A stretch of 64,000 nucleotides of DNA from Rhytidiadelphus loreus (taxonomy: Eukaryota > Streptophyta > Bryopsida > Hypnales > Hylocomiaceae): positions 17,117,001-17,181,000 of the forward strand of contig OX344765.1 in the NCBI GenBank assembly GCA_947034895.1, written 5' to 3'. The notes under the pieces are model-generated. The model was not told where the DNA came from, made no database searches, and worked only from the letters and a program-made list of their open reading frames with translations. Both the position numbers and the translations under genes were made by a program. Of the stretch, positions 24,868 to 50,695 are shown piece by piece (position 1 is the first letter of the stretch; each line of letters starts with the position of its first letter).

Positions 24868-25051
24868 CAGGGTTGTCTTGTCTAACAGAATTTCGAGTTT
24901 TTGTGTCTAATAGACGTCGCATGTCGCATGTCGAATTGTCGAGTTGTCGAGTAAGGGCGGTTTTTGTTGTCGTGTACGGATTTCGGATTTCAAATTTTTT
25001 TACCCCTTGGTAAAACGGACTGTCCTACGTGGTTGTGACGTGGCGTGCTTC

Positions 25052-25350
25052 CTGAGGGGCGACCGCGGGTAGGGGCGACCACGGGTAGGGGCGACCGCGG
25101 GTAGGGGCGACCACGGGTAGGGGCGACCGCGGGTAGGGGGGCGACCGCGGGTAGGGGGCGACCACGGGTAGGGGCGACCGCGGGTAGGGGGGCGACCACG
25201 GGTAAGGGCGACCGCGGGTAGGGGGGCAACCACGGGTAGGGCGACCTCGGGTCCAAAATCCTGGGCGACTGCGGGTCCGAATCCAGGGCAACCGCGGGTC
25301 CGAAGTCCAGGGCGACTGCGGGTCCGAAATCCAGGGCGACCGCGGGTCCT
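25052..25350 (+). repeat. GC-rich minisatellite M1 (E1 left end)
   Basis: About 15-18 tandem units of roughly 15-17 bp on the pattern GGGGCGACCNCGGGTA. The variable position largely alternates between G and A in successive units (GACCGCGGG / GACCACGGG), then shifts to GACTGCGGG and GACCGCGGG with longer spacers. Frames through it encode only Arg/Pro repeats and are not genes. Confidence 0.92.
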
Positions 25351-25873
25351 ACTTCATGGGCTACATGTCTGGGGCCCCCACAACATTTTTTTTCCAATAT
25401 TTATTCTTCAACCAACACATTCCACGGCAAATCGGCAATATATAAGCATTGAATTATATGCTCGGTACGTACCAAAGCAAATGAACATGCATTATGTAAT
25501 GATATATCATGGGACAATCAATTCATAAGCCTAAAACATAATAATAATAAAAACCTTGGACAATAATCATATTAATTTAAATGGAACTGCGTACATACAT
25601 AGGGATGATCTTCACAATTGAGTACCAAGACCACTCCTGTTTGAAATTGCACACTTATTTGCAAAAAATACGAATACCTTCATTAATCATCATTGTCAAC
25701 ACCAAAGTACCTTTTACAATCTTCCTGACTTTGTGAAGCCAAGTGATGGACTACACAAAATTCAAAATCTACCTATTTCATTACAAGCTTTGGCAACAAA
25801 TCTTCACTACAAGGCATTGATGTTAAATCCTTATAGTACTATTTGAAGGCCTCCACATCTATAATGCAACACA

Positions 25874-28800
25874 TTACATTGTGAAGGTAGAATCGCTTTC
25901 CGCTTCATCTGCATTGGGGTCGGTGTCTTCATGTGGCCCACTACTGTCACTAGCTCCTGAGACCTCGTTTTCATCATCCTCTCTGCTTGTAGGTTGAAGG
26001 ATCACCTCACGTTCCACCTCAGAGTTCAAATTTCGCACTTGCGTTTCTAAACCACCAACAACTTCGGCTAGCACTAATCGCTTTGTCGGCCTCGATGCAT
26101 CAGTGGTTCCATTGATAATAGGGCCTGTCGGTCGCTCAAGCACCTGCTGCCCAACATGTTGACGCTCTGCTCTCGCTGCTGCGCTTGATGGCCAAGGATT
26201 ACGAGTGGAATTTCGTTCTCCAATGACAAATGGATGGATCGCATGGTTTTGACGTTTGGGGTTCCGTGTCAGTCTGTCTTGCGTCTTGTGGGTTCGTTTA
26301 TTTCCTGATTTGGAGTGTTCACGCGATCGCTTGGATGATTCTCCAGGGCCTGACATCAACGAGGCCGGAGTAGGTTGTGGAGCTGAGCCATGCACTCCTT
26401 CATCAACGATTTGTCGTAGATCATTATGTGTCGGCGACCTTGTTAGAGGAGTTGGTACTATCCTCGATGTTGTGGCAATGTCTATACTTGCAGGGCGATT
26501 GGACCCACGGGTACGGGTCTCGTTGAATACCACTTGCAATGGCGCATCTGAATCGTACACCCTAATTTCTGTTGCAGTGTTGTTGGTCGGTGCTAAACTT
26601 GGACGAACTGCAGGTACCTCTTCAGTATGCGACACCTCTTCTTGCCTTTCACCCTGTACATTAACTCGTGCACCACTTCGGAGGTTCATTGGCATACTAG
26701 GCGGCAGACATGTGGCAATTGGAGACCTTACAAGCTCCACTTCATCTGCCACTGGAATATTTGCACCGTCATTGTTGTCATCAGGAGTTCTTTCCCTCGT
26801 TGGGTCTGCATTGATTACCGGAAATGCATCCCAAGCCGACACATGAGGGGCTTCGTCTCTGCGGTGGTGCGACGCCTCTGGAGAGCTCAATCCATCATCA
26901 TCACCCACGAAAGTGTTGTGGTATCGTCCTCGTGGAGGACTACCTACACGGGGCACCATACCAGCCCACCTATTTCCACGGAGGCGTTCTTCTACTACCA
27001 CACGTCTCTGTTCTTCTCTCAAATCTCTAAACCTAACTTCATCTTCGTCCCCCGAAGAATATGGTTCCTCATTCTCTTCATCTGTATCTCCATCTACAAG
27101 GTACTTTTTGTAGAATAGTGCTGGATTGTGTCCTTGTTTTTCACGTTCCAATTTGTTGTTGGTGTAGATATACACCAACATCTCAGCCTTCTTTGTGGCT
27201 AGGCGATTACGCACTTTATCGTGTACAAACGAATACATGCTCCAGTTTCTTTCACAAGATGATGCTAAGCATGTCAGAGACAAAACTCTCCTTGCTATTT
27301 TTGGAAGAGCGTTCCCACCCACACGATTCCACCATTGATGAGGCAACAAGTTACATCGAGTAACATCTGGAGCCTCTTGTAATGGATCAAAGGGACCCGA
27401 CTTCTCTTCAAATTCCGTCAACTCAGCAATTGCTTCATCTTCATCCACATTCAATGGTCCGCTCAATTTTCTGATGACTCGATTCAATGCCCGCTTTGCC
27501 TCTCCATTGTTATGAAGCTCTTCCACATCTGTCAAATACGGGTTCAACAATGCCCCTGCATAATGGAGGTCCGTGCGCATCAACTTCCAACGAGTATCAA
27601 ATTGTTTTAGGAACTTCGTCGCGGTCTGCTCATCAAGAAAGAACGGAGCCTCCTTTAAAGTGCACACGTGCTGACGAAGGCTACTCATTATTATCCAAGC
27701 TTTCGGCATCGCCGGTATTTTGCCATCGAACTGGCACAGAGCAAGAATCACTGGAAGAACCATGTGCTGGAAATTACCGCATTCCACTCAAAACACTTCC
27801 GAAACTATGTCCTCTCGCGCTTTACGGGCCCGCTCTCTTGTAATGAGTCCGTTTGTTCTGCTGACCAAACTATTCTCAAATGGCATATACGACTCGTCCC
27901 CCACCACGAATTGAAGCGCTTGTTTGCACTCTACCAAACGGTCTATCATGAGAAAATGCACTGCGAAGCGTGTGGCCGCGGGAAGTCTCAATGACTTCTT
28001 TGGCGAGTACTTACGGAAAAGACCCAAAGTCAAGTGGTATTTCTTTATAAACTTCACAATTGCCCTGGCCTTATCCACTAGATCTTTGATCCTTTTTTCC
28101 TTTTCCCAGTCTTCCAAAAGTAAGTCCAATATATGTGCGGCACATCCTTGCGTATACATGTGGGGATACCTTGCTTGCAACTCGCGCATTGACCCTGTCA
28201 TTACGGAAGCATTGTCTGTACACAATTGGACAATATTTCTTGGTCCCACCTGCTCTATGTAGGTAGCCATTGTATTCACCGTATACGCCATGTCTTTCCT
28301 CTCTCCTGTGGTGTCAACCGATCCCAGGAAGACATCACCCGCAGGGCAAACGAGCATCATATTCAACAAGGGACGGTGATTCGTATCTGACCATCCATCT
28401 GAACAGATAGTGGCTCCATATTGGGTAATAGAACTCTTTGTTCGACTACTGACCATTTTCGTAACAGCCTCCTTTTTCACATCAAGTAGTTTAGTGCGCA
28501 CCGCATTGTACGATGGCGGGGAATATGGAAATCCACATGTCAAAGTTGCTTTCACAGCATTCACAAAGGCTGGGTGCCGCACCACATTGAATGCAATGTT
28601 AGCCTCATAAAAGAAAGAAGCCCATAGTCTGTCCAAGTTTTGTTTTTCATTGACCCGGAATGATTCATCCATGCTTTGTTGACGAGAAATCGAGGTTGAG
28701 CGCATCCTTCTCACCGTCATAGGAGTAGAATTCGTTGAATCTAGATTACGTGGCGGTGCATTAGGTGCTTCTGTCCTGTCGCTTGGGTCCACAGACCCTT

Positions 28801-29161
28801 CCACTGATGCATCCACAGTATACCCTGCAACGGACTCAGCAACAACATCAACCTCAAGATCTACTCCATGCATCTCCTCCAAACTCATTTCTTTTGGTAC
28901 AATCCCTTCACAGTTTCTGAATAATTCGAGGACTACGGATGGAATACGTTTACAACGTTCCACTGTTGATGTACGGGGGTAACCAAAGTGACCAAATGCC
29001 CGCTTCCGCACGAAAACTTTGTTCCAACCACAAAAAATACAAGTCCTCGTATTTGCGGAACGAGCGGGGTTCGTTTCAATAACCAACCAAGGATCCCACT
29101 CCTTTGTGGCTCTTCGAGTATCATTTATGTTCGTCCTCCTCCCCGCTCCTCGGTTTGCCAT
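25874..29161 (-). pseudogene. E1 hAT transposase (BED-DUF659-hATC) with one in-frame stop
   Basis: The frame starts at the ATG at 29,161 and runs uninterrupted apart from a single TGA at 27,788-27,790; repaired it would be about 1,095 residues. A BED-like zinc finger has C41, C44, H58 and C70. The DUF659/RNase H-like core shows CSDGWSD at 253-259 and CTDNAS at 314-319 (two candidate catalytic aspartates), then GCAAHILDLLLEDW. The hATC dimerisation region (HQWWNRVGGNALPKIA...SSCERNWS) lies about 145-210 residues past the stop. A tail of ~425 acidic and Ser/Pro-rich residues follows, ending in a short amphipathic segment (LETQVRNLNSEVEREV). The sibling in E2 has tryptophan at the stop position (FWVQCDNF), so TGG became TGA. 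As it stands the product would lack hATC. Confidence 0.9.
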
Positions 29162-29229
29162 ATTGTTTATCTGATATGCGTTATTCCAAACCGAAACGTA
29201 TATGTACCCAAGTGCTTCGGAAAAAAAAA

Positions 29230-29345
29230 TTATGACAAAGCCACCGCTTCGAGTAGTTTTCTAACCACTCAAAGCAAGGTTGTTGCCCTCTAAAGAATAT
29301 AACATTGCATGAAGCCTCTTGAGAAGATCCAAGCCATATGTTCAT
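29230..29345 (-). promoter_or_regulatory. Conserved upstream block of the E1 transposase gene
   Basis: The sequence just upstream of the transposase start (GTTGTTGCCCTC..., GCATGAAGCCTCTT..., TCATCAACAGAGC) is also found upstream of the E2 transposase at 61,280-61,400, although the two elements have diverged elsewhere. It lies between the coding start and minisatellite M2 and probably holds the leader or promoter. The role is inferred from position and conservation. Confidence 0.5.
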
Positions 29346-29539
29346 CAACAGAGCAATGGAAATCCAATGTTGTTCCTCTACATTTATAGTGCTTTCGGTC
29401 TTCCCTCCACACGCTCCAAGGATGGTTTTAGGGCGCCGCTACCAAACTCTATTACACCCGAGGTCGCCCTACCCGACCGCTGGTCCACCTCCATGCATAT
29501 GGAGGCGCGCGCCTTTGCAGTAGTCGACTTCGGGTCACA

Positions 29540-29745
29540 TGGTGCGAACGCGGGTTCCGGCAGGCGACTTCTGGTCCGAAATAGGGCGAACGCGGGTCCA
29601 GGGAGGGCGACTTCGGGTCCAGGGGGGTGACTTCGGGTCTAGGGAGGGCGACTTCGGGTCTCAGACGGGCGACTTCGGGTCCCACATGGGCGACTTCGGG
29701 TTTCATGGGAGACTTCGAGTGCCATGGGCGACCTCGGGGGAAAGA
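29540..29745 (+). repeat. GC-rich minisatellite M2 (between transposase and WCHI gene)
   Basis: About ten units of GGGCGACTTCGGGTC with short spacers (CCAGGGA, TCAGAC). The variable dinucleotide is mostly TT here, unlike the CG/CA of M1. Confidence 0.9.
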
Positions 29746-29769
29746 AGGGTGACTTCATGTGCATAAAGA

Positions 29770-30938: not shown

Positions 30939-32516
30939 TCATGCAACATCCATATTGGCCTCCTCTTCCCTTTTCTTCTTCATGACTTCAAACTCATGGG
31001 CCGCAATTCTATAAGCACTCTTCAAAAGGGGTAGGTCATGGTTCCACATCTTGTTTTTGATCCAAAAATTCTTGAACGTTCTCGCATAACCAATGTGTGC
31101 AGTCCGGAAATCTATGTGCTTCTGAAACTGGTGTTCAAGCTTCTTCAAAGAAACTAACTTCTGCTTCAAGGAAGCTACCTCTGATGTCAACACACAATGC
31201 TCTTCATCTACTACTAATGCATCCAAAGCCATTGGAAGGTCAATGGGGCCTACAACCGTGGTTTCTTTTAGGTCATTCAACCTTGACTGCGCTTCTTCCA
31301 CAGCTTTCCTTTCGGTATTCAATCGGTTTTCTTCTGCCAAACACTCTTCCATTATTTTGGCCATTCATTTATCCAAGAACGGGGTGGAATTTGAGGTAGA
31401 GCCTCCATCTTTGCCTTTATTGAATTTCAAATAAAATTGCTCCAGCTCGTCCATTTCCTTTTGTTGAACTGACAAACGAACTTTCCCGCTTATGATTAGT
31501 GCTTCAAGGGTGTGCTCATCGTTGTCCTCAATGTCACCACCAGTGCGTTCACGCTGCCTTTCACATTCCATTCCTATTTCTACCAGTCTACCAAGAATAG
31601 CCTTCAACTGGGCTTTATAAGCTTCTTTTCCTTGCCTCCTCGTGTCTTCAAGATATAATACTTCCCTTCCTGCTTCTTGAAGAGGTAGTTCTTCACATGA
31701 ATCAAAAATCACCAATGCTTGTTCAGCATCTCGTTGCAACCCGATCTCGCCCTCCTCCTTGTCTTCCTCCATTTCTCGCATGCGTGCATATACATGTTGA
31801 AGAACTTCGTCTTCCTCAGGATGACGGAAGTGCATTGGCTCCAACGATCTAAGAGGCGCGACATGCAATACTACTGCCTCTTCTGAGTCTCCAACAAAAG
31901 GTACCACCGCTGCCATATTTTCTTCAAGTATTGGATCTTCATTTGGGGGCATAGGGTCTGCAATGTCTTCTTCATCCGAGTCGGTGGAGGTGGACGACTG
32001 GCCCCAATCGTAGTCTTCATCCGACACTTCTTCTTTGAAATGTTTTTTGGGCCCTAATCCATCCCTCGGATTATTTGATGGATCCGCCCTTGGAATGTCT
32101 TTGGTAGTGGGAACTATGCTATTGGGGGTTTTCTTAATGGTCCTCCAATCCACAGTTCGTCGCAATTGTAGCTCTGCATAGACCATTTGGCATATACCCA
32201 ATGAAACTTGACTCCCCTTCACTGTTGGTTTTTGATATAATGTCCGGTAAACTTCGATGCACCGTTGCACAAATGCATCATCTCTGCAGTAGTGAAGATT
32301 AGCATTGTTTTGGCTGATATGGACATCGTGCCGGAAGTAAGGGAATAGCTTATCGATATGGCACCACCCTACGTAGGCCTTGCAAGTGTTGAACGTCCAA
32401 TCCGATTGCACGTTTTGCCAATTTGGAAATGCCCTTGCTGTTGGGTCCAAAAGGATGGCTACATTCCGACTATGGCGCTCTCCTTTCTTCTTTGCCTTCT
32501 TAAAGGGGGGGGCCAT
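30939..32516 (-). pseudogene. E1 WCHI-family gene with one in-frame stop
   Basis: The ATG at 32,516 opens a frame of 526 codons, broken only by a TGA at 31,365-31,367. Residues 1-18 are strongly basic. The family domain (about 18-135) contains ILLDP, TCKAYVGWCHIDKLFP (51-59 for the core) and FVQRCIEVYRTLY, followed by MVYAEL...VDW and a TKDIPRADPSNNPRDGLG linker. The middle is acidic and serine-rich, and the C-terminal third is predicted coiled coil. The E2 homologue has arginine at the stop, so CGA became TGA. A conserved upstream block and minisatellite M3 lie 5' of it. I do not recognise the domain. The basic N-terminus and coiled coil would suit a nucleic-acid-binding dimer, but that is inference. 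Confidence 0.8.
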
Positions 32517-32699: not shown

Positions 32700-32865
32700 G
32701 CGACCGCATTTGTACCCGAAGTCGCCCTGGGCGCGTGCGGGATCAGGGTTTAGGGGGGCGAGTGCGTTAAGTGGGGCGACCGCGGGTACAGGGAATTCTA
32801 GGCAACCGCGGGTCTTGGAAGGGCGTGTGCGGCTTCAGGGCGACCGCGGGTCCAGGGAAAGGTAG
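32700..32865 (+). repeat. GC-rich minisatellite M3
   Basis: Degenerate units of GGGCGACCGCGGGT mixed with GGCGCGTGCGGG-type variants, just upstream of the WCHI gene. Confidence 0.8.
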
Positions 32866-34139
32866 CAGATTTAGGAAATGCAGAGGGAGAATTGACCCCC
32901 TCATTGCCCCCGTCAACTTAGATTTTAAAAAAAAGCCCCCTATATTCTGCCAACTTTTGGGTAATTCTTGCATCTCCTAGAAGTAATTTGGGGCCTCTGA
33001 TTGCAAATATGATTTCAGAATTCCCCAAAAAATTAAGCAGTGCAAATAATAAATTCTAGGGCAAGCCCTGGATGGGCAATGAGGGAGTCAATTCACCCTG
33101 GCCCTCACAAATGGCTCATCTCAAGACTGATCTCCCTTTTTCATGTATTTACTTCAATGAAAATATTTTTAGATCATTTTTCAGACAAAGAAAAATAAAA
33201 GAGGAATCTAACACAAGTGATTTCATTTTTTTTAAGTATTTTTTAATTAATTGTAAATTTCCAAAGGACTTGTGTCATAGGTCCCTACTTATGCCCCTAG
33301 GTCTCCCGTAAAACGTTCACTTGCAACTTCTAAAGAAAAATGGGGAAGTAAAGAGAATGAATTGGCTTTTACAATTGATAATTTTTTTTTCTCGAATCAT
33401 TTAATGATTATGGAGGTCAATTTATGAACTACAGTTTGTCCATTTCAAAGCCACTTATAGAGTCCATTTTTAATGCCCACTCCATTTTAGAGCCTTCTAC
33501 CTTATATTTACTTTCACATCCTCACAAATGGAGAAAGGAAGTACAATTTATGTATCAATGAATAGGTGGTAGTAAAATCGTGGGCCACCGCAATTAAAAA
33601 TATTCCCAACATGTAATGAGTTTAATAGCTTTTTCAAGTGATATTAAGTTTTGGAAGAGAACATTTTAGTGTGCCAATATAATTTGTAGTTCTTCATTTC
33701 AACTCCAATCCCAAATTTATTTTTATAAGCAATACACTCAACCATGAAAAAGTAAATTTGGTAGGTTATCATCTCACAACTCTTATCCAATATTGCACCT
33801 TCATGAAACGTGCATACTAATACACAAGCTAATTAAACATTCCTATGGTTAGGTTCTTGTTTCATAAAACTTGCTTCAATGGAAATAACTATAAGTCCAT
33901 GCTCTTTTCATAAAGGAAAAATACAGTTGGAAAGGCATAGGCACTTAGGGGGTCATTAGTAATGCATTCTAATTGTTAAGCTAAACTTATCTTTTGACTC
34001 TAAATAGATTATGCAAACACCCCTCTTCTAAAATCAAATTTCATTCGCAAGTACATCTTCGTCATTGTCCATAATGACGAACAATTCTAATTAAATAATG
34101 ATTTAGCACAAGTGAATTCTAAAATACTGTATATCATTA

Positions 34140-34530
34140 CAAATTAGTTACTTTAAAGTTTCAAAAATTCCCGTAAAGACCTCGGTCTAGGCCAGGTGTC
34201 GTGCTTCGAAGGTTTGACCAAAGACCTCCTCGACCTCCGCAGTGAGATGTTTTCTATCTCATTGCGGAGGTCGAAGAGGTCCTTGACCGAACCCATAAGC
34301 CCAAACCAGAACCTCGTACATCATGTACACCGGGTTGGGAATCGAACCATAGACCTCCCAGACTCCACTTGAATTCGAAGAAGTCGACCCTTGTCTGAGA
34401 ATCCCTTCCACTACTTCACCTTCTCGTTGGTCACATCGGGAATCACCTTTGATGCACCACTCCTTGTCCATCCCATCTTTATTCATTTTTTTCTTTGATT
34501 CTACGGGGCTTCAAAATACCATCAGCCGCC
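34140..34530 (-). repeat. tRNA-like/hairpin repeat, copy A
   Basis: On the minus strand a Pol III B-box-like sequence (GGTTCGATTCC, 34,338-34,348) lies downstream of an A-box-like GTGAAGTAGTGGAAGG. Next to it is a 26-bp inverted repeat (34,223-34,248 with 34,256-34,281; two mismatches, 7-nt loop). The stem sequence differs from the other copies, but its pairing is kept. This resembles a tRNA-derived SINE head fused to a foldback unit. Confidence 0.65.
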
Positions 34531-34549
34531 CAACAAAAATTAGTCTCCC

Positions 34550-34800
34550 CGTTTTGGACCCGAAGTCGCCCCACCCGAAGTCGCCCCACCCAAAGTCGCC
34601 TTACCCGAGGTCGCCCAAGTCCCAGAAAAGAGGGAAGCAAAAATGCGTGAGTTTTTCCCTCCTCTCTGGACCCGCGGTCGCCCCACCCGAAGTCGCCCTA
34701 CCCGCAGTCGCCCCAGCCGTGGTCGCCCCAGCACCGCTGAAGGAAGTCCGAATTTCCCCCTTCTCTGGACCCGCGGTCGCCCCACCCGCGGTCGCCCCTA
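34550..34800 (-). repeat. GC-rich minisatellite M4
   Basis: About 14 units reading ACCCGAAGTCGCC or ACCCGCGGTCGCC on the plus strand, with two short interruptions. It abuts tRNA-like repeat copy A. Confidence 0.88.
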
Positions 34801-35579
34801 CATCAGTATTTGAAAGAGTCACTTAGAGAACATTGTTGTCATCAATGGTAGGTGAGATCATAGAATATTTTCTACATAGCTTACAATTATAACACATGAT
34901 CATTTTATTAAATGGTCCCTAACAAGGCTTCAATATCCTCAAGTCCTACAGTCATAAACTCCAAACCCTACAAAGCCCTCGCAAACTAGAACCTATACCC
35001 AAACCTAAACCCTTGAATGCCCAACCCATTTTAGGATGTTTTATGAATGTGCTTTAACATCAACAAGAAGCCAACATTTTGAATTATAGAATCAATTTCT
35101 TTGTAATTCTTCATTTTTCCTCCAATCCCTACAAAATTTATTTGTGCAAATTATCAAAATGTTGTGGAGAGGGGTAATACACTTGAAGTAAAAAATGTAC
35201 ATTTCTCTTATTCTCTTGTTATAATCTTACAACAGTTACGCAATTTTGCACTCAAAATTAATGTGCATACTAACAAGCAAGTTCTTTATACATTCATACG
35301 GTTAGATTCAAAAATAAATAGGAAACTTGCTTCAATGGGAATTACTATAAGTCCATGCTTTTTTTTAATAGGACAAATACAAGAGGGAAAGGCTTAGGCA
35401 CGTAGGGTCTAATTAGTAATGCACTCTAATAGTTAAGTTAAATTTATCTTTTGACACTAAATAGATTATGCAAACACCCCTCTTGTAAAATTAAATTTCA
35501 TTTTCAAGTATTTATTCGTCATTGTCCATAATGACGAACAATTCTAATTAAAGAAAGATTTAGCACAATTGAATTCTAA

Positions 35580-35950
35580 AATACTCTATATCATTACAAA
35601 TTAGTTACTTTAAAGTTTCAAAAAATCCCGTGAAGACCTCGGTATAGGCCAGGTGATGTACTTTGTGGATTGGGCGAAGGACCACTTTGAAATGAGAAGT
35701 GAAATGTTTGTCATCTCACTTCTCAATTCAAAGTGACCCTTGACCGAACCCGTAAGATCCAACCAGATCCTCCTTTATCATGCAGACGGGGTTGGGAATC
35801 GAACCGCAGACCTCCTAGACTCCACTTGAGTTTGAAGAAGTCGACCCTTGTGTGGAAATCCCTTCCACTACTTCACCTTCTCGTTGGTCACACCCGGAAT
35901 CACTTTTGATGCACCACTTCTTGTCCATCCCATCTTTATTCTTTTTTTTC
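35580..35950 (-). repeat. tRNA-like/hairpin repeat, copy B
   Basis: Same arrangement as copy A: B-box-like sequence at 35,795-35,805 on the minus strand and a 20-bp stem (35,683-35,702 with 35,716-35,735; one mismatch, 13-nt loop). The outer half of the stem resembles copies C and D, while the inner half differs. Confidence 0.65.
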
Positions 35951-36014
35951 TTTGATTGTACGGGGCTTCAAAACACTTTGAGCTGCCCAACACAAATTAA
36001 TCTCCCAGTTTTGG

Positions 36015-36215
36015 ACCCGAAGTCGCCCCTCCCGAGGTCGCCCCAGCACCGCAGAAAGAAGTCCCCAATTTCCCCCTTCTTTGGACCCGTAGTCGCCCTA
36101 CTCGCGGTCGCCCCACCCGAAGTCGCCCCACCCGAGGTCGCCCCAGCACCGCAGAAAGAAGTCCCCAATCTTCCCCTTCTCTGGACCCGCGGTCGCCCCA
36201 CCCGCGGTCGCCCCT
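36015..36215 (-). repeat. GC-rich minisatellite M5
   Basis: About eight units of ACCCGAAGTCGCCCC and ACCCGAGGTCGCC on the plus strand. The spacer AGCACCGCAGAAAGAAGTCC occurs twice and also appears in M7, showing that M5 and M7 share descent. Confidence 0.88.
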
Positions 36216-37224
36216 ACATCAGTATTTGAAAGAGTCACTTATAGAAGACTGCTGTCATGGTAGGTGAGATCATAGAATATTTTATGAATTTGCTTTAAAT
36301 TGTACAAGAAGTCAACATTATATGTGCCTACTAACAAGCAAGTTGTTTAAACATTCATACGGTTAGATTAAAAAATAAATAGGAAACTTGCTTCAATCCC
36401 AATTACTGTATGTCCATGCTTTTTTTTCATAGGAAAAATACAAGAGGGAAAGGCTTAGGCACATAGGGCTTAATAATTAATGCACTCTTATTGTAATGCA
36501 CTTCAAGATTTTTTCTCAAAGTAGCCAAAGTGACGGTTTTTAGTGGTTCTGAACCTATAATGGCCTTCGAACTTCAGGGGTTAAATTCACATCTAAAGAA
36601 ACTTTTATTAGTTTTCGATTATGGCTCAAACATATAGATCTTGCAAGAATATTTTGACCTTGTATTCAAAAGTAATGAACCTGGAAGAAGCCTTCAAGGT
36701 ACTCTTTGTAAAAATGTTTTGTGAAACATTAAAAGGCAAATTCAAAATTTAATTTTTAATTTGTAGACCAAAATGGTTTTGTTGAGAGAAAACGTAATTT
36801 CTACATATAAAGGTGAAATTAATTTCACCTAAAAATGGTGTATTGCATTTAACCCTTATGTTCCCATTTTTTTTGGCCCATTCAAACCAATTGAGAAATG
36901 TCGTTTTTATTGCCAAAAACCTATTAAGATTACAAGAAAGTCATCCTTTTTTGCCGGATGAACCAATACAAGTGCCGATTGTCAATGCTTTTTAGAAGGA
37001 AAATGGGCTCCATTATTCCAAGGCTATATATCTTACTGTAGGATATCTTACTGGAACATTGAGCCTATTTAATTCATTCATTGCAGCAAAATACAAACAT
37101 TGATATGAGAGATTCAATACAACATACCATGAAGAATAGATCCACAATATTGCCAATTTGGGGAAAATGGCACTTCATATTAAAATTTGATTACATGTAC
37201 TAGAAGTACTACTCCAAAATGATA

Positions 37225-39039: not shown

Positions 39040-39420
39040 GGCGAATGCGGGTGGGGCGACTGCTTAAGTACCCGCGGTCGCCATAGGGACGCGTGCGGGT
39101 GACAGGGCGCGTGTGGGTAAGGGTGACCGCGGGTACCAAAGCGGTCCTGAAACCTGAACCCGAGGTCGCCCCCTACACCCGAGGTCGCCCTGGAACTTGG
39201 GACTTCCATCTTTTTTGGTGCTGGGGCGACCTCGACTGGGGCGACTTCGGGTAGGCGACTTCGGGTGGGCGACTTCGGGTGGGGCGACCGCGGGTCCAGA
39301 AGTCGTGGAAAATTCACGCATTTGTAATCCTCTTTGGGGGATTGGGCGACTTCGGGTGGGGCTATGGAGCCGTGGGGCGACTGGGAGACTATTTTGTGTT
39401 GGGCGACTTCGGGTATTTTG
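39040..39420. repeat. GC-rich minisatellite M6, mixed orientation
   Basis: Units in both orientations: ACCCGCGGTCGCC and ACCCGAGGTCGCC toward the left, GGCGACTTCGGGT toward the right, with GCGCGTGCGGGT variants between. Mixed orientation suggests recombination at this point, where the right arm of the inverted duplication begins. Confidence 0.85.
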
Positions 39421-39424
39421 AAGC

Positions 39425-39790
39425 CAATAGAATCAAAGAAAAAAAGGAATAAAAATGGGATGGACAAGGAGTGGTGCATCAAAGGTGATTCCCAATGTGA
39501 CCAACAGGAAGGTGAAGTAGTGGAAGGGATTCTCACACAAGGGTCAACTTCTTCGAACTCAAGTGGAGTCTGGGAGGTCTGCGGTTCGATTCCCAACTCC
39601 GTGTGCATGATGTAGGAGGTTATAGTTGGGTCTTACGGGTTTGGTCAAGGGGCACTTTGAATTTCGCACTGAGATGAAAAACATTTCAGTGCGAAATTCG
39701 AAGTGCCCCTTGGCTCAATCCTCGAAGCACGTCACGTGGCCTATACCGAGGTCTTCACGGGATTTTTTGAAACTTTAAAGTATCTCATTC
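39425..39790 (+). repeat. tRNA-like/hairpin repeat, copy C
   Basis: A-box-like GTGAAGTAGTGGAAGGG near 39,512-39,528 and B box GGTTCGATTCC at 39,583-39,593, followed by a 26-bp stem (39,646-39,671 with 39,687-39,712; one mismatch, 15-nt loop). No discriminator/acceptor stem is formed, so it is tRNA-like rather than a tRNA gene. Confidence 0.7.
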
Positions 39791-40008
39791 GTAATGATAT
39801 AGAGTATTTTAGAATTCAATTGTGCTAAATCTTTATTTAATTAGAATTGTTCGTCATTAGGGACAATGACAAATAAATACTTGTGAATGAAATTTGATTT
39901 TACAATACGGGGTGTTTGCTTAATCTATGTAGGGTCAAAAGATAAGTTTAACTTAACAATTAGAGTGCATTACTAATGAACCCCTAAGAGCCTATGCCTT
40001 TCCAAGTG

Positions 40009-40425
40009 TAAGGTAGGAGGCTCAGAAATGGTGCACCTAAGGGCTGGTCTGCCTTTTTCGTGTATTTCTTTGGACGGGAATATTTTTAGCTCATTTTTCA
40101 GACAAAGAGAAATTGATGAGGAATCTAACCCAAGTGGTTTCATATTTTTCCAAAGATTTTTGAATTACTTATGAATTTTCAAACGAGTTGGGTCATAGGT
40201 CCCTATTTGTGACCCTAGATCTTTCATGAATGGTTCACTTGCAATTCTAAATAAAAATGGAGAAAACACAGAGAATGATTGGCTCTTCCAATTAATAATG
40301 TTTTCTTCCTTGGTTCATTCAATGAATGTATTGGTCAATTTCAGAACTTTAGATGCACCATTCCACAACCATTTATAGGAGCCATTCTTAATGCCCGCAC
40401 TCTTTCACAACCTCCTACCTTAGTT
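40009..40425. mobile_element. MITE-like copy inside E1
   Basis: Starts TAAGGTAGGAGGCTCAGAAA and ends with the inverse of TAAGGTAGGAGGTTGTGAAA. The interior is homologous to the element at 9,912-10,327 outside E1. Both ends are present. Confidence 0.6.
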
Positions 40426-41639
40426 TTTCTGTTATGAAAAGAGCATGGACTTGTAGTTATTCCCATTGAAGCAAGTTTCCTATTTATTTTTTAATCTAAA
40501 CGTATGAATGTTTAAACAACTTGCTTGTTAGTATGCACATTCATTTTGAGTGCAAAATTGCGGAAGAGTTTTAAGATTATAACAAGAGAAATGTACATTC
40601 TTCACTTCGAGTGTATTACCCCTCTCCACAACAATTTTAAAGTTTGCAAAAAAAAAGTTTCTTGGGATTGGAGGAAAAATGAAGAAGTATACAAAAATTG
40701 ATTCTATAATTCAAGATGTTGGCTTCTTGTTCAAGTTAACCCCTAAGTGACCCCGAGGACAGGATGGGTCCTCAACCAGTTTCCTAAGTTAAACAAAACC
40801 TTACCAAATTACTATATGTAGTAATTCATATTTTTGGAAAATTCTTTTTGAAGTTTAGTTTTAGCTTCAAAAATCTGATTTTGAAAATGATTGATTATGA
40901 TTTTTCTATTTAAGATTTTGTGCATGGGTGTACACTTGCAATCTTGACTTTTTGTAGTGTTGAGGGCTCTTAGGAATGAGCCTCAAACACACTAAATCTT
41001 TGAGAAAATATCACATTACAAATGAAATTAAAAAAAATGATAAAGTAGATTTTGAGAAGTTATAAATTGATTGGGTTTATGCACCTTAGGCCCTTTAAGC
41101 TCATATTTTTTAGGTGACGAACTTTTTAGATTTCACATTTGAAAAGAGGATTGAAATACTTCAAATCACTTTCACAGATTTAACACCCTCATGATAAAAC
41201 ATTATAATCTTTCAATAAATTAGAGGTATTGTTGTGTTTTCTTTTCTAATGTGATCTCTAATACGTCTAGTTTGAATTTACACGGTTACAATTCAAAAAG
41301 AATGGATAGAACGTATCAAAATGTTGGATTTTTGTTCAATTTAGAGCAAATTCTAGAAGCTTAGCAAATTCCAGGGTCATTTTGGGGTTCAAGCAAATTC
41401 ATAAACCATCCTAAAATGCGTTGGGCATTTGAGGGTTTAGGTTTGCGTTTATGGTTCTAGTTTGCGAGGGCTTTGTAGGATTTTTGGTTCATCATTGTAG
41501 GGCTTGAGGATATTGAAGCCCACTTAGGGACCATTTAATAAAATGATCATGTGATATAATTGTAAGCTATCTAGAGATTATTCTATGATCTCACCTACCA
41601 TGACTGCAATCTTCTGTAAGTCACTCTTTCAAATACCAA

Positions 41640-41925
41640 TGTAGGGGCGACCGTGGGTGAGGCGACCGCGGGTCCAGAAAAGGGGGAAACTAGGGACTTC
41701 TTTCTGCGGTGCTGGGGCGACCTCGGGTGGGGCGACTGCGGGTAGGGCGACTTCGGGTAGGGCGACTTCGGGTAGGGCGACTTCGGGTAGGGCGACCGCG
41801 GGTCCAGAGAGGAGGGAAGAACTCATGCATTTTTGCTTCCCTCTTTTCTGGGACTTGGGCGACCGCGGGTAGGGCGACTTCGGGTGGGGCGACTTCGGGT
41901 CCAAACGGGGAGACTATTTTGTGTT
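41640..41925 (+). repeat. GC-rich minisatellite M7
   Basis: About twelve units, mainly GGGCGACTTCGGGTA in a tight run near 41,737-41,800 and GACCGCGGG at the edges. It contains the same spacer as M5 (inverse). Confidence 0.88.
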
Positions 41926-41934
41926 GGGCAGCTG

Positions 41935-42310
41935 ATGGTATTTTGAAGCCCAATAGAATCAAAGAAAAAAAAGAATAAAGATGGGATGGACAAGGAGTGG
42001 TGCATCAAAGGTGATTCCCGATGTGACCAACGGGAAGGTGAAGTACTGGAAGGGATTCTCACACAAGGGTCAACTTCTTCGAACTCAAGTGGAGTCTGGG
42101 AGGTCTACGGTTCGATTCCCAACTCTATGTGCATGATATAGGAGGTTATGGTTGGGTCTTACAGGTTCGGTCAAGTGGCACTTTGAATTGCGCACTGAGA
42201 TGAAAAACATTTCGGTGCGGAATTCAAAGTGGTCCTTGGCCTAATCCTCGAAGCACGTCGCGTGGCCTATACCGAGGTCTTTACGGGATTTTTTGAAACT
42301 TTAAAGTAAC
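41935..42310 (+). repeat. tRNA-like/hairpin repeat, copy D
   Basis: B box GGTTCGATTCC at 42,109-42,119 and a 26-bp stem (42,172-42,197 with 42,213-42,238; few mismatches, 15-nt loop). It is very similar to copy C, including the ~90 bp before the B box. Confidence 0.7.
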
Positions 42311-43407
42311 TAATTTGTAATGATATAGAGTATTTTAGAATTCAATTGTGGTAAATCATTATTTAATTAGATTTGTTCGTCATTATGGAGAATGACGAAT
42401 AAATACTTGTGAATGAAATTTGATTTTACAAGATGGGTGTTTGCTTAATCTATGTAGGGTCAAAAGATAAGTTTAACTTAACAATTAGAGTGCATTACTA
42501 ATAAAGTCCTAAGTGCCTTAAGCCTTTCCCTCTTGTATTTTTCCTATGAAAATTGAGCATGGACTTATAGTAATTGCCATTGAAGCAAGTTTTATAACCC
42601 GAAAATCTAACTGTATGAATGTTTAATTAGCTTGTGTAGTTGTGTATTAGTATGCACGTTTCCTTTGAGTGCAAAATTGGATAAGAGTTGTGAGATGATA
42701 ACCAAGAAAATTTTCATTTTCTTTATTGATTGTATTGCTTATAAAAGAAAATTGGGATTGAAGGTGAAATGAAGAACTACAAATTATATTGGCACTCTAA
42801 AATGTTCTCTTCCAAAACTTAATATCACTTGAATAGCTATTAAACTCATTACAAGTTGGGAATATTTTTAATTCTGGTGGCCCACGATTTCACTACCACC
42901 TATTCATTGATACATAAATTTTTTTGCTCAGGCAAGGGTGTGCATTGAAGCATTTGACACTCAAGGAAACACTATCGTAAATATTTTTTTAGTTGGGGAG
43001 TTTCTCCAAATCCGACGTCCATTGGATTTTAAAGAGGCTTCCTTTCTCCATTTGTGTGGATGTGAAAGTAAAGATAAGGTAGAAGACTTTGAAATGGAGC
43101 GGGCATTAATAATGGATTCTATAAGTGGCTTTGAAATGGACAATATGTAGTTCATAAATTGACCTCCATAATCATTAAATGATTCGAGAAAAAAAAATTA
43201 TGAATTGTAAGAGCCAATCCATTATCTTTACTTTCCCATTTATGTTTAGAAGTTGCAAGTGAACATTTTGCAGAAGACCTAGGGGCATAAATAGGGACCT
43301 ATGACAGAAGTCCTTTGGAAATTTATAAGTAATTATAAAATACTTCCAAAAATATGAAACCACTTGTGTTAGATTCCTCTTTTATTTGTCTTTGTCTGAA
43401 AAATCAC

Positions 43408-43625
43408 CCGAAGTCGCCCAGGGACCCGCACCCGAAGTCGCCTAGGGACCCGTACCCGAAGTCGCCCAAGGACCCGCACCCGAGGTCGCCCAGGGACCCG
43501 CACCCGCGGTCGCCTTGTGGACCCGTAGTCGCCTGGGTACCTGCAGTCGCCCTTGTTCGGTCGGGGGACCCGCACTCGCCCTACTTGGAGGACTCGCACT
43601 CGCCCTCTCGCGACCGCTAGTCCCA
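43408..43625 (-). repeat. GC-rich minisatellite M8
   Basis: About ten units of CACCCGAAGTCGCCCAGGGA on the plus strand, degenerating into ACTCGCCCT variants, directly upstream of the intact WCHI gene's upstream block. Confidence 0.88.
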
Positions 43626-43961: not shown

Positions 43962-45455
43962 ATGGAGCGTACGACCTCGCCATCTCCTCCTATCATACCT
44001 ACTCCATTGACTCCGCAAGAGAAAAGGGCGATGAAGGACAAGGGTCGAAAACGGTCAGGCAAGAAGCACAAGAAGCGCGTGGCCATATTACTTCATCCGA
44101 AGATTAAGGCTTTTAAGGGTTGGAGGGATGAACCAGAGCCTTGGAGTTACCGGACTGTTGCGAAGTATGTGGATTGGTGCCACATCAGCAAGTTATTTCC
44201 GTTGTGTCGTCACCCTTTGCACGTTCAAAACCAAAAGGTTAACCTTGCATATGCTACGGACACAAGGTTCATGCGTAGATGCTGCGAAGTATGGACCCTT
44301 CTATATTTGGAGACTAAGGTGTACAGAAACGATAATTTCAGTTTCTTTCTTGTACGAATGGTGTATGCCGAAGTTGTTTTGAAGAAGGTAGTCGATTGGA
44401 CAACACTCCCAGAAATGCCTATTGCGGTCCGTCCGGACCAAAAAGAGTGGGAGGAAGCCTCCAACTTGTGGGCAAAGTATCCTCTTGATATAAGTAAGAT
44501 GATGACACCGATTAAGCGTGGAGCATCATTTGTTGCTGATGAAGAAGTAGTTTGGTCTTCCACTTCTTCCTCGGACGAGCACACCCATGAGTACAACGGA
44601 TATTCCTTCTCTAGCGATGATGAAGATGTTTTTGTCACCGAGTCCAAGAAGTCTTTGGATGTGGGCCTTCAGAAGAAGAAAGATCGTGGAAAAGAGCCCA
44701 TTACCTCAACCAGCCATGAAGAAGTCTTGGAAAAAGTTGACCCCATGGAAGTGGAGCCCTTTTCCACAGAGGAGTGTGCGATGCTAGAAGGTGATAGTGA
44801 TTCATCAGACAATGAAGAGACCTTGATTGCCAAAATCGAGAGTGCACGTTTATCATTGAGTACAAAGAGTGAGGAACTGAAGAATTTGAAGGAACGCGAA
44901 GTGTCTTCTCCCATTGAAGCTTATTTGAAGCAACAATTGAGGTCTCTCAACCAAATACTCAAAGAGAGAGATGACGATTTTGTTGCTTTTAAGAAGAATG
45001 GAGACCAGTATTTAACTAAGCAGAGCACCGGGAAATTGTCGCAAGCTGACCATTGTTTATTGTGGGAATCAAAATTAGAAACCCTGCAACGCAGACGTAG
45101 GAAAGCACAGAATGAGTGGCGAGCACTGCGTGTTCAAATTACCGAAGAAGAAAAGAAATATTACGAAGCGGCCAAAAAACATGTCAAGGAGGTGGACGTT
45201 TTGGCAACGGCCTCGACATACGGTAATCTACCAGAGGAGTTAGAAATGCTTCGGAATTTGGTGAAGTTCCATGAGACTAGAGTACAAGTGTTGGAAGACG
45301 AGTTTGTGGATTTGAGAGCCGAAAGCGAGTATTATACGCAGTGGATGAAGTGGATGAAGGATACAACGGGAAAGAGAGGTGAAGAATACGAGAAAGTGGG
45401 TCCTCCTCCTAATATGAGTGACTTCCTAAACCAAAAAGAGGTTTTTAGAAAGTAG
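43962..45455 (+). CDS. WCHI-family protein, intact cargo gene of E1 (497 aa)
   Basis: Complete frame from ATG to TAG with no interruption. Residues 20-39 are highly basic (KRAMKDKGRKRSGKKHKKR). The family domain spans about 39-150: AILLHPKIKAFKGW, then AKYVDWCHISKLFP (core at 72-80), FMRRCCEVWTLLY and MVYAEVVLKKVVDW. An acidic/serine region (about 190-280) with patches such as SSTSSSDE follows, then a long heptad-rich coiled coil from about 285 to 470. Three relatives are present in this window, at 30,939-32,516, 47,425-49,905 and 62,210-63,817, all inside giant hAT elements. I do not recognise the family. DNA binding and dimerisation are guesses from composition. It lies on the arm of the inverted duplication opposite the broken copy. 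Confidence 0.8.
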   Translation: MERTTSPSPPIIPTPLTPQEKRAMKDKGRKRSGKKHKKRVAILLHPKIKAFKGWRDEPEPWSYRTVAKYVDWCHISKLFPLCRHPLHVQNQKVNLAYATDTRFMRRCCEVWTLLYLETKVYRNDNFSFFLVRMVYAEVVLKKVVDWTTLPEMPIAVRPDQKEWEEASNLWAKYPLDISKMMTPIKRGASFVADEEVVWSSTSSSDEHTHEYNGYSFSSDDEDVFVTESKKSLDVGLQKKKDRGKEPITSTSHEEVLEKVDPMEVEPFSTEECAMLEGDSDSSDNEETLIAKIESARLSLSTKSEELKNLKEREVSSPIEAYLKQQLRSLNQILKERDDDFVAFKKNGDQYLTKQSTGKLSQADHCLLWESKLETLQRRRRKAQNEWRALRVQITEEEKKYYEAAKKHVKEVDVLATASTYGNLPEELEMLRNLVKFHETRVQVLEDEFVDLRAESEYYTQWMKWMKDTTGKRGEEYEKVGPPPNMSDFLNQKEVFRK

Positions 45456-47424: not shown

Positions 47425-49905
47425 TTACTTCTTAGAAGAACTTGCTTCACCATGTGAAGGTTGAAGTGCCTCTTGAAGGACTATCTTCTTCTTTGCACGA
47501 GTTCGTGAAGCTGGCCCTTCCGCATTCAAAATGAATTCCAGGACGTTGGAATCTTGAAGAGCTTGTAGGGTCCTTGTGGTTTGTGGAGAATGTGCTTCCA
47601 AAAGATAGTCCAATGCTTGACTTTGGTAATAAGGTCCATACGTAGAGTCCATGCAAGCCATGTTAGTCATGTCTTCAAGAGAGGCAAATTGATTGCGATC
47701 GGGTCCTCTTTTACCTTCATTATTCCAACGGTGTCCTTCCGGATGAGGACCCCATTTGAATTCTCCCGAGCTCTTCTCGAAGTATCCACCAAGGCATTGG
47801 TAGAAGAATGCCCTTCTCCCTTCATTGTGTGGACCTTTTCCCATCAACTTCGGTGCCACTTTGACAATCTCCGCCGGGTCAGTTTCCCAGTTCAATTGAG
47901 AGCTACTAGGTGCCTTTTCATCATCATGTAGCCCTTGATGCCAGCTCCAAACGAGGTCACGACCCCACAGTGTCGTATTAGTCGTTGTTTCAACGCTATG
48001 TTCCCAAGAAGGTAGCATGTACGTCATCAAGTTGAACATGGCATACAAGCGATCATGGAATGGTACTGAACAAAGTACACAACGTCGTCTAATGAGGCAT
48101 CCCATAAGGAGGCATTGAGGATGGTACACATGTGCACATGACCCAAGAGCCCAACCACCTTCAGGGCCAAATTGCTCTTGACAAATGGGGCATTTTGTAT
48201 GGTCGAGTACGAAAGCTGCAGGTTGTGGCCACAGTAGCTTTTGGTCCTTCACCTCCATGTGACTAGACATTTGCTTTGCATGGTCCCAGCCCTGTTGTGC
48301 CCAATCTATAATATTTGTGTCTGCCAACATCGGCATGTTTTCAGGAAACATGTCATCTAAGAGTGCCCAGGATGTGAGTCCATTCTCACGTTTAGGTAAA
48401 GCTGCAACAAAATTCTTTGAAACCTTATCTAATTCTTTGGCTATTTGCTGCGATCTGTCCACGGAGAGAATGCACGCCACCTTTCAATGGTAGTACGTGG
48501 CAACCAATTGATCCAACCGTTGTTGAAGCTTTTCGTTCTGCTTTTCAAGGTCTCTTTCTTTGTCACTCTGCCTTGATTGTTGAACTGTTGGAAATGAGAG
48601 TGAATCTTGGGTCCCATGAATATCATTCGTGTCAATAGTCGTGTCTCCGCCAATCGTAGTGAGGAACGCACTTCGATTATTTTGCAAAACCTTAGCACGC
48701 TTGGAAGGTGGTGGATGGCAAGGAACATCATCGGTAAGGTCCTCCACAACTTTGTCTAGATGATGTGGATCATGGTCAACAAAAGCCTCATCCATATCTG
48801 ACAAAGTGAAAGCGCCAGCCTGATTTTCTCGCAGGGCTTGAAGCTCGGTAGATTGTCGTACAATGAGAGCATCTTTCAGTTGGCACTGTCCTTGCAATTT
48901 CTTCAAGTCACTTTCCAATGAAGCAATCTTGTTGTCTTTGATCTGTATGATGTTTTGAGCCTTTGCTAGGGTCAGAGTGTTGTGACCTACATCCACTCGG
49001 GATTGAAGAGTTGATGCACCAACAATTGTTTCACTGGGCCCTTCATCGTTGCAACTGAATTCGAAGACATCACTTGGATTCTGTGCAGACAATGGTGGAT
49101 TTGAAGCTGATGGAGAAGCCCCTTGTGGTCCAATTTGTGTAGTGGAACGTCGCACTCTTGACGATTGTCCCGATTTACGTCCCCGTGATGTTCTGACGCC
49201 GTGGATAATTTCATTCTAATTTGGGGGGAGGCCGATAGGTAGTTCCGTGGCTCGTTCTACCCGAAGCACCCGCGTACCATCTGAATTGTCATCCTCTTCT
49301 GATGACTCTGTGTCAATTTCAACCTGGGCCTAATTCCTAGGAACACTTCGAAAAGGCCCCAATCCACCCTCTGGAAAAATGAGAATTCCTTTTGGTATGC
49401 ACCCGTCCTCTGGACGTTTTACGTGAGGACTAGATTTGATCGTGCTCCAATCGACTTCTTTCTTCAATGCCACTTCAGCATAGGCTCCTTTGGCAAGGAA
49501 AAGAGGGGCCTCATTCCTTTCTACAGAGGCCGTATTGTAGAGAGCTTGCCACAATTCAATGCACCTGTTCACGAATATTTCATTCTCACAGAACTTCAAG
49601 TTCGCCTTGTTGGTGTGTCGATGATGATGATGACGCCATGCTGGAAAGAACTTGTTGATGTGGCACCACTCAATGTAATCTTCGCAAGTTTGTATTGACC
49701 ATGGCTCAGGCTCCTCGTTCCACCCCTTGAAAGCAATGTGGTCAGCACTATTCAACACATGCAATCGCTTTCGGTGACAAGTACCCCTACGCTTCCGTTC
49801 CTTGTCTTTTTGAATCTTTCGCAATCCCAAACCACGACGTGGACGTGGAGCCGGTGGAGGTGCTTCAGCAAGAAATTCTCCAGTGGTATTGTCTCCACTA
49901 GCCAT
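47425..49905 (-). pseudogene. WCHI-coiled-coil-RING fusion gene of E1, three in-frame stops
   Basis: From the ATG at 49,905 one frame runs 827 codons to 47,425. It is broken by TAG at 49,330-49,332, TAG at 49,216-49,218 and TGA at 48,484-48,486; all three stops lie in the same frame with no shift. The N-terminal part has the family domain with YIEWCHINKFFP and FVNRCIELWQALY. The middle has a heptad-rich segment (IIQIKDNKIASLESDLKKLQ) and an acidic region. The C-terminal part carries a RING-H2 pattern, CPIC...CAHVYHPQC...CVLC (C-x2-C-x14-C-x-H-x2-H-x2-C-x10-C-x2-C), at about 48,060-48,190, suggesting an ancestral ubiquitin ligase. Short introns removing the stops cannot be excluded but are not evident. 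A TATA-like GCCTATATATGAAG lies about 190 bp upstream (near 50,095-50,108). Confidence 0.75.
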
Positions 49906-50109
49906 GGTGGATTGTTGAAATGAAGGTCCTAAAAAATGTAGAGGGATTAATGAAATCAAACCACTAGAAAAAGAACCTTGGATGAAAGTAGTCAAATAGT
50001 AAATTTTCAACACCAAATGCTTATGCATGTAGCCAGAAAGGGATACAAGCCAAGAAGCCTTAGTGATGAACATGGGAGAATGAAGATTCGGTGACTTCAT
50101 ATATAGGCA

Positions 50110-50525
50110 AACCCGGGTGTGGATGCAAAATGGGCGCGTGCGGGTCACGTAGGCGACCAGCGGTCCTGGAGGGGCGACCAGCGGTCCTGGGGGCGACCAG
50201 TGGTCCTGGGGGGGCGACTGCGGGTCCTGGGGGGGGCGACTGCGGGTCCTGGGGGGGGCGCGTGCAAGTGACGAAGGGTGAGTGCGGGTCTTGGATGAGG
50301 GCAAGTGCGCCGACGGGTGCGGGTATCGGCGACCGTGACCTAGTACCCGTGTTCGCCTAAGACCTGTAGTCGCCCCATACCCGCAGTCGCCCCTACCCGA
50401 AGTCGCCCCGGACCCACGATCGCCTCACATCCGAAGTCGCCCCCACCCAAAGTCGCTCTCACCCAAGGTCGTCCCACCCAAAGTCGCCCCCTACCCGAAG
50501 TCGCCCTCACCCGAGGTCGCCCAAC
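50110..50525. repeat. GC-rich minisatellite M9 (E1 right end), two orientations
   Basis: The left half reads GGCGACCAGCGGTCCTGG and GGCGACTGCGGGTCC, the right half ACCCGAAGTCGCC. The reversal occurs near 50,340-50,355. Together with M1 it forms the GC-rich subterminal zones of E1. Confidence 0.88.
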
Positions 50526-50695
50526 ATTTGCCACGCAGCTGCCACATGGCAGCCAGGTAAGCCTAGGTAAATGGGGGGTAAATTCCAGAAAAGTCAAAGG
50601 GTAAAGTTGACTCTATTAGACGGATGGGCCCCTCTACTAGACGTCTTCGACGTCGAGTTTGTCGAGTTGTCGAGTTGTCCGGGTAGACAACCCTG

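Follow-up and report, generated by a model that had tools for sequence, protein, structure and literature searches.

A giant hAT element of Rhytidiadelphus loreus with probable accessory genes and a 13-bp motif at its ends and upstream of its genes

Element 1 of Rhytidiadelphus loreus is a hAT transposon of 25,828 bp (24868-50695) whose ends are inverted repeats of 11 bp, flanked on both sides by an exact 8-bp duplication. Besides its transposase, it holds four further genes and dense arrays of a 13-bp motif, GGCGACNNCGGGT, at its ends and upstream of its genes (Table 1). By comparison, hAT elements usually measure a few kb and carry a single transposase. The reading we favour, and hold to be somewhat probable, is that element 1 is a partly decayed copy of a giant hAT family with its own accessory genes and a trans-acting regulatory system that works on shared arrays. 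The window, by which we mean the whole stretch of DNA analysed, comprises 64,000 nt of the forward strand (assembly GCA_947034895.1, contig OX344765.1, 17,117,001-17,181,000), and the family comparison rests on the two elements within it, the second of them incomplete.

Table 1. Features of element 1 and of the left part of element 2, in window coordinates.
Feature	Position	Strand	Remarks
8-bp target site duplication ATTACAAA, left	24860..24867	.	
Left terminal inverted repeat CAGGGTTGTCT	24868..24878	+	
Left-end motif array	25058..25347	+	16 sites, all inward
hAT transposase gene (DUF659 + hATC)	25874..29161	-	one in-frame stop at 27788-27790
Motif array upstream of transposase	29456..29739	+	10 sites (9 +)
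Gene X1: X domain + coiled-coil-like tail	30939..32516	-	one in-frame stop, 31365-31367; counterpart in element 2
Motif array upstream of X1	32714..32851	+	4 sites (3 +)
Left repeat modules	33104..36494	.	inverted relative to 39192-43404
Motif array in left repeat modules	34558-34796	-	10 sites, all -
Motif array in left repeat modules	36015-36212	-	8 sites, all -
Protein kinase gene	37225..38886	-	intact open reading frame; HND catalytic loop, CDWG
Motif array upstream of kinase	39040..39414	+	11 sites (8 +)
Right repeat modules	39192..43404	.	
Motif array within right repeat modules	41646-41900	+	11 sites, all +
Motif array upstream of X2	43406..43580	-	8 sites, all -
Gene X2: X domain + coiled-coil-like tail	43962..45455	+	open reading frame intact
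Gene X3: X domain + RING-like region	47425..49905	-	three in-frame stops
Motif sites upstream of X3	50213..50247	+	two + sites (50213, 50235)
Right-end motif array	50345..50521	-	8 - sites, inward
Right terminal inverted repeat AGACAACCCTG	50685..50695	-	
8-bp target site duplication ATTACAAA, right	50696..50703	.	
Element 2, related giant hAT, end CAGGGTTGTCTTGTCTGA	56870..64000	+	left part only
Element 2 motif array	57059-57377		
Element 2 transposase	57937-61216	-	broken
Element 2 motif array	61446-61713		
Element 2 X1 counterpart	62210-63817	-	one in-frame stop

The boundaries of element 1 carry two hallmarks of the hAT superfamily. The terminal inverted repeats are short, of the CAGGG type and exact over 11 bp, with the same end found again at 56870, and the 8-bp target site duplication is exact on both flanks, as the initial annotation had reported. 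A scan of the window for exact 8-bp duplications (at least three different bases) combined with an inverted repeat of at least 6 bp returned 39 pairs. The inverted repeat reached at least 11 bp in 10 of the 39, and among those 10 only element 1 has a non-palindromic duplication. Within these ends, the transposase matches DUF659 (PF04937, E 1.8e-36) and Dimer_Tnp_hAT (PF05699, E 1.8e-6), both above the Pfam gathering score, in agreement with the DUF659/hATC transposase first noted inside the unit. The motifs CSDGWSD, CTDNA and CERNW, which may represent the DDE catalytic triad, are present in that order, and CAAH is present as well; an N-terminal CxxC...H region could bind DNA. This copy of the transposase is broken, and the in-frame stops of element 1 number one in the transposase, one in X1 and three in the X-RING gene, X3.

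A second, related giant hAT (element 2) starts at 56870 with the end sequence of element 1 and runs past the edge of the window. It holds a transposase and then an X1 counterpart, in the same order as in element 1, the transposases sharing 52-64% amino-acid identity by piece. For transposase and X1, dN/dS between the two elements is 0.10-0.35, below 1, with synonymous sites near saturation. Together, ends, duplication, transposase and second element give good support to the complete giant hAT unit originally proposed, in a description that had mentioned neither the in-frame stops, nor the element at 56870, nor the motif arrays. The right-end duplication of element 2 is expected to be GTCGGAAG, beyond 64000. 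Adjoining element 2 is a candidate element at 51460-56869, which is without GGCGACNNCGGGT and carries different, CGGACGG-rich repeats of its own.

The four additional genes that had been counted in element 1 are two X genes (X1, X2), one kinase gene and one X-RING gene (X3). X1, X2 and X3 are diverged copies of one paralogous family, here termed X, in which a basic N-terminal tail and a compact domain are combined with a coiled-coil-like tail (X1, X2) or a RING-like region (X3). The X domain is conserved and rich in Trp, Cys and His, and its Pfam matches are weak and scattered, with no match beyond weak E-values for 14 X members searched at E up to 1. A fold search with the X family gave no match, including none indicating DNA binding, and an informative name was borne by none of 10 hits in a single-sequence search and none of 13 in a profile search. 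X3 consists of open pieces in one frame, united as a single gene by homology to P0011, and its RING matches fall below the Pfam gathering score. The gene initially called kinase-like is indeed an HND-type protein kinase with an intact open reading frame, and has 59 relatives in the database.

Allowing one mismatch at most, GGCGACNNCGGGT occurs 112 times in the window, and all 112 sites lie within the two elements (89 in element 1, 23 in element 2), with none in the 31,041 bp outside both elements; each of five Markov shuffles of element 1 contained 0-1 sites. Arrays are present at all three visible ends, where sites point inward throughout, and 154-382 bp upstream of 6 of 6 testable genes, where sites mostly point away from the start codon; between the convergent genes there are none. 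For X3, the full sites of its own number only two. Of ten multi-site clusters in element 1, seven fall into zones defined as the 600 bp next to an end or upstream of a start codon, and none of the seven zones of this kind is empty; the chance under random placement, to be read with caution, is 0.003 for the former and 0.0002 for the latter. These zones make up 25% of the non-coding DNA of element 1 and hold 59 of its 89 sites. The other 30 comprise 29 sites in three repeat-module clusters and the one site (1/89) in coding sequence, and no gene was found beside the two arrays of the left modules. The observed/expected CpG ratio is 0.96 in the arrays versus 0.54 in other non-coding element DNA, 0.73 in the coding DNA of element 1 and 1.04 in the motif-free candidate at 51460-56869; the excess in the arrays counts in favour of the proposed control system but may instead stem from a GC-rich make-up or from recent tandem amplification.

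Whether these features belong to one transposon can be weighed against three other accounts. That ends and duplication coincide by chance, in a region that is an accidental mosaic, is scarcely credible. Exact 11+8 bp pairs, with the duplication unfiltered, numbered 13 in the real window versus 1 in total over 60 Markov-shuffled windows, and while shuffling does yield an occasional pair of this kind (1 in 60 windows), the same end sequence, next to a related transposase, opens a second element, and three ends share the subterminal motifs GACGTC and TTTACCCC at comparable depths. The duplication had also been read as a sign that the whole block moved as one; it does show a joint landing of both ends, but not the presence at that time of every internal kb, because later nested insertions leave a duplication unchanged. 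A smaller hAT (transposase, X1, X3) might thus have grown by a nested, kinase-bearing mobile unit between the inverted modules at 33.1-43.4 kb, in which case the 25.8 kb would not have moved as a single block. Repeat modules make up part of that interval and flank the kinase, one of their components also occurs outside element 1 at 9912-10267, and they contain a tRNA-promoter-like GGTTCGATTCC stretch, as in SINEs. We nevertheless consider such growth unlikely: the modules and the region upstream of the kinase bear the element's motif, which is absent outside the two elements in the window, there is no second CAGGGTTG or CAACCCTG end inside element 1, and a scan of 29.3-47.4 kb for non-palindromic duplications (5-11 bp, exact) accompanied by inverted repeats of at least 10 bp gave two pairs only, both of them formed by the motif units (shorter duplications, of 2-4 bp, gave many pairs that are little informative). 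It is more improbable still that the extra genes are passengers, picked up accidentally from the host and of no use to the transposon, even though protein kinases form large host families. In plants, DNA transposons are known to capture genes (PMC13317346), and capture of gene sequences has been called rare in hAT elements (PMC3260210). Against chance capture, X1 is kept in element 2, three X paralogues share element 1, the motif precedes every gene, and the X domain has only weak Pfam matches and uninformatively named search hits (10 + 13). On the first three of these grounds, the four extra genes look to be probably the element's own accessory genes, and the earlier label "cargo-carrying" is probably wrong.

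The motifs at ends and promoters suggest that the element runs its own gene-control system. By analogy with the superfamily, the transposase would recognise the terminal repeats and move the unit by cut-and-paste, giving rise to the 8-bp duplications. The 13-bp motif, which occurs at each end and ahead of each gene, would constitute one shared set of target sites, bound by a protein that the element itself encodes. The likeliest binder is an X protein, whose coiled-coil-like tail we propose to serve pairing. Such binding could, in a VANC-like manner, counter host silencing so that promoters and ends stay open, or switch them together in another way, and the RING-like and kinase genes may also have roles in the system. 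The putative binder is either an X protein or the transposase, and X need not be the one, because the hAT transposase itself binds subterminal repeats. A somewhat unlikely version, then, is that the arrays are subterminal transposase-binding repeats that spread to promoters and gave the transposase control of every gene, the X proteins doing something else. Arrays at three visible ends, the CxxC...H region, which could bind DNA, and the Ac transposase, whose binding sites are hexamer repeats of AAACGG within the terminal 200 bp (PMC3260210), all speak for it. However, 174-190 bp separate the tips from the start of the end arrays, and further arrays are found over 10 kb away from either end (at the kinase promoter, 375 bp with up to 11 sites), beyond the needs of end recognition, and three diverged X genes are retained in a single element. 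Returning to an X protein as the binder, we tentatively extend the reading: a hAT lineage may have independently evolved VANC/VANDAL-like control, in which X would be a new DNA-binding family, with RING-like and coiled-coil-like variants, that reads the 13-bp code of ends and promoters, thereby making a 25-kb unit accessible and mobile in the face of silencing, the candidate at 51460 being a sister with a diverged code. If true, this would yield a new candidate family of DNA-binding domains with a specific 13-bp target, and an element-wide motif code beyond MULEs would make convergent transposon-encoded anti-silencing directly testable. In itself, a hAT family of 25.8 kb whose accessory genes are conserved extends the known carrying range of the superfamily.

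Among known elements, maize Ac/Ds shares the 8-bp duplication, and Ac has one transposase gene. Ac/Ds also resembles element 1 in its 11-bp terminal inverted repeats, subterminal short repeats and hAT transposase, and Ac differs in its 4.6-kb length and in having AAACGG as the short repeat of its terminal 200 bp (PMC3260210). ToxhAT of fungal wheat pathogens is likewise an oversized hAT-type element with several genes, including non-transposase genes, between terminal inverted repeats; in contrast to element 1, it is fungal, measures 14.3 kb, about half the size, and has 74-bp terminal repeats, while the available text names an MFS transporter, patatin-TPR and ToxA, none of them X or kinase, among its genes and mentions no motif arrays at ends and promoters (PMC6737239). 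The giant KDZ, EnSpm and Sola-1 DNA transposons of algae also measure 10-30 kb and hold accessory genes, most of which have no known function, but they belong to other superfamilies, with neither X-like genes nor end-and-promoter arrays mentioned in the accessible part of their description (PMC12477816). Starships of fungi are giant, cargo-carrying eukaryotic elements, a class defined by a tyrosine recombinase where element 1 has a hAT transposase; membership was rejected, as a Pfam scan matched that recombinase in none of 10 reading frames of element 1. At the level of titles and abstracts, no giant hAT with accessory genes in plants was recognised in the literature, which is weak evidence of absence.

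The closest likeness in working is to the VANDAL/VANC system of Arabidopsis. There, short motifs form dense, same-orientation, non-coding arrays that are rare elsewhere and arose via tandem repetition (PMC5735166), and accessory protein genes are carried by the element (PMC5735166, PMC10398659); in element 1 and element 2, the arrays are dense, non-coding and element-specific within the window (112 of 112 sites in the two elements). VANDALs, however, are MULEs (PMC13317346), whereas element 1 has a hAT transposase, and VANC proteins contain DUF1985 and DUF287, neither of which is matched by X (of the 19 Pfam families that 14 X members matched at E up to 1, none is DUF1985). For VANC, motif binding and hypomethylation have been demonstrated (PMC5735166, PMC10398659), whereas for element 1 they are hypothetical. 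Element 1 is thus not a member of the VANDAL/VANC system, being no MULE and with no DUF1985 match in the X family, but by analogy it may work in a similar way.

The initial annotation described a 25.8-kb giant hAT transposon (element 1) with inverted ends and a flanking duplication, and both are found: CAGGGTTGTCT opens the element, AGACAACCCTG closes it, and ATTACAAA lies on either side. A whole-window scan returned 39 pairs of an exact 8-bp duplication with an inverted repeat of at least 6 bp, the repeat reaching at least 11 bp in 10 of them; element 1 is the only one of these 10 with a non-palindromic duplication, the palindromic duplications in such pairs occurring within long inverted repeats. 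With the duplication left unfiltered, the real window holds 13 pairs of the 11 + 8 bp type, as against one in total across 60 shuffled windows. The proposal that the whole block moved as one stands in part, as the matching duplication is present but does not prove joint movement of all 25.8 kb. Element 1 contains two sets of repeat modules, one component of which recurs to the left of the element. We lean to regarding these modules as part of element 1, because they carry the element's own motif (see below) and no exact, non-palindromic duplication (5-11 bp) paired with a genuine inverted repeat brackets them. A tRNA-promoter-like GGTTCGATTCC stretch, or a close variant of it, marks a module present four times in element 1, perhaps as a SINE-like repeat; Rfam and ARAGORN searches came back empty.

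Features of the region, in window coordinates
Feature	Position	Description
Major facilitator transporter gene	2774-4620	two pieces; the only host-like one of 10 reading frames Pfam-scanned outside element 1
Copia retrotransposon	18687-23723	203-bp repeats (98% identical) enclosing reverse transcriptase and integrase domains; ~1.1 kb left of element 1
Element 1	24868-50695	giant hAT transposon
Repeat modules	33.1-36.5 and 39.2-43.4 kb	one component recurs at 9912-10267
GGTTCGATTCC modules	~34353, 35819, 39550, 42080	within element 1
MITE-like unit	40009-40430	ends AAGGTAGGAGG / CCTCCTACCTT; related sequence at 9912-10267, 33104-33541, 43038-43404
Possible third related element	51460-56869	begins CAGGGTTGAC
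Telomere-like repeats	53643-53694 and 55708-55759	plant-type (CCCTAAA/TTTAGGG), in both arms of a 1.1-kb inverted repeat
Element 2	56870 to window edge	left part of a related hAT

Pfam places DUF659 and the hAT dimerisation region, as annotated, in one transposase gene of ~1,095 codons inside element 1. The opening 16 bases of the element, CAGGGTTGTCTTGTCT, are found again at the start of element 2, whose transposase shares 52-64% amino-acid identity (by piece) with the first and is likewise followed by X1, on the identical strand. All three available ends carry GACGTC ~42-51 bases and TTTACCCC ~114-132 bases inward from the tip. Estimated dN/dS between the two elements is 0.10 and 0.27 for the two parts of the transposase, and 0.24 and 0.35 for those of X1; synonymous sites are close to saturated. 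Such values would be expected from genes that were long functional and have lately begun to decay. In element 1, the transposase and X1 each have one in-frame stop and X3 has three; the kinase and X2 frames are uninterrupted. Between the elements lies the possible third element, with a 1.1-kb inverted repeat (98.5% identical) and 26 occurrences of CGGACGG on both strands, against one in the remainder of the window; element 2 seems to have inserted into it, GTCGGAAG being the expected duplication.

The annotated novel gene family is borne out, in that X1, X2 and X3 have an N-terminal domain in common; an alignment of 14 sequences shows nine invariant columns in it, and a basic stretch precedes it. 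After this domain, a coiled coil is suggested by weak hits to coiled-coil families and structures. X3 consists of open pieces sharing one frame and is read as a single gene, since the database protein P0011 has the X domain together with the middle and the RING-side segment on a single chain; the RING matches of the X3 piece fall under Pfam gathering scores, and P0011 shows none. A single-sequence search found 10 X relatives and a profile search 13 proteins (5 already among the 10, 8 new), none with an informative name, and Pfam families gave weak, scattered matches only (best E 0.0031, in at most 2 of 14 members). The AlphaFold2 model of the domain is confident (mean pLDDT 84.8) and has no fold match among PDB or viral folds. 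The fourth extra gene, noted as kinase-like, is indeed a kinase: the lysine, HND loop and DWG motif vary little or not at all across 35 aligned relatives, taken from 59 proteins matched in a database search and aligned with the element 1 kinase, and its structure model is kinase-like. A lichen MAG record gives one of the 59 a name; labels are otherwise generic.

A 13-bp motif, GGCGACNNCGGGT, occurs at 112 sites in the window at up to one mismatch, 89 in element 1 and 23 in element 2; none falls in the 24,867 bp left of element 1 or in the 6,174 bp separating the two. When element 1 was Markov-shuffled five times, each shuffle held 0-1 sites. At two mismatches there are 133 sites, 5 of them outside both elements. 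At both element 1 ends and at the left end of element 2, the motif forms clusters in which every site points inward. Further clusters lie upstream of both transposases, X1, the kinase, X2 and X3, at distances of 154-382 bp from the start codon, with most sites facing away from it. X3 has just two upstream sites of its own, adjoining the right-end array; for the X1 copy of element 2, the seventh gene, most of the upstream region falls beyond the window. No motif site occurs in the 2 kb separating the convergent X2 and X3. Counter to this pattern, three element 1 clusters, together 29 sites, sit inside the repeat modules around the kinase and have no neighbouring gene, and one site falls within coding sequence. 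For a placement test we split cluster 50213-50521 into promoter and end parts and dropped the lone coding site, giving ten clusters. When ten clusters are placed at random in non-coding DNA, at least 7 land in end or promoter zones with probability 0.003, and all 7 zones are filled with probability 0.0002. These values are indicative, because both the zones and the split were picked with the data in view and the zones of X3 and the right end overlap.

Judging from its family, the hAT transposase would move element 1, and the shared motif suggests that a single factor acts on both ends and promoters. CpG observed/expected in element 1 is 0.96 in the arrays, 0.54 in other non-coding DNA and 0.73 in coding DNA, beside 0.60 in the left flank and 1.04 in the possible third element, which is without the motif. 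The weaker depletion in the arrays fits low methylation, or else composition or recent amplification. One speculation is that the RING-like and kinase products modify host silencing factors or promote their turnover.

Other superfamilies are already known to include giant DNA transposons with accessory genes, as an excerpt of PMC12477816 records, and in fungi a hAT-like element of 14.3 kb carries cargo (excerpt of PMC6737239); among the open papers searched, we found no 25.8-kb hAT combining a recurrent new gene family with an end-plus-promoter motif code. The X proteins are first candidates for the motif binder because the array anatomy resembles that of VANDAL21, a MULE transposon, with its anti-silencing protein VANC21, and the transposase is the second because maize Ac transposase binds subterminal hexamers (excerpt of PMC3260210). 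According to an excerpt of PMC5735166, the YAGTATTAY motifs to which VANC21 binds lie densely and in one orientation, mainly in the non-coding parts of VANDAL21, and VANC proteins bring about a loss of methylation across the element.
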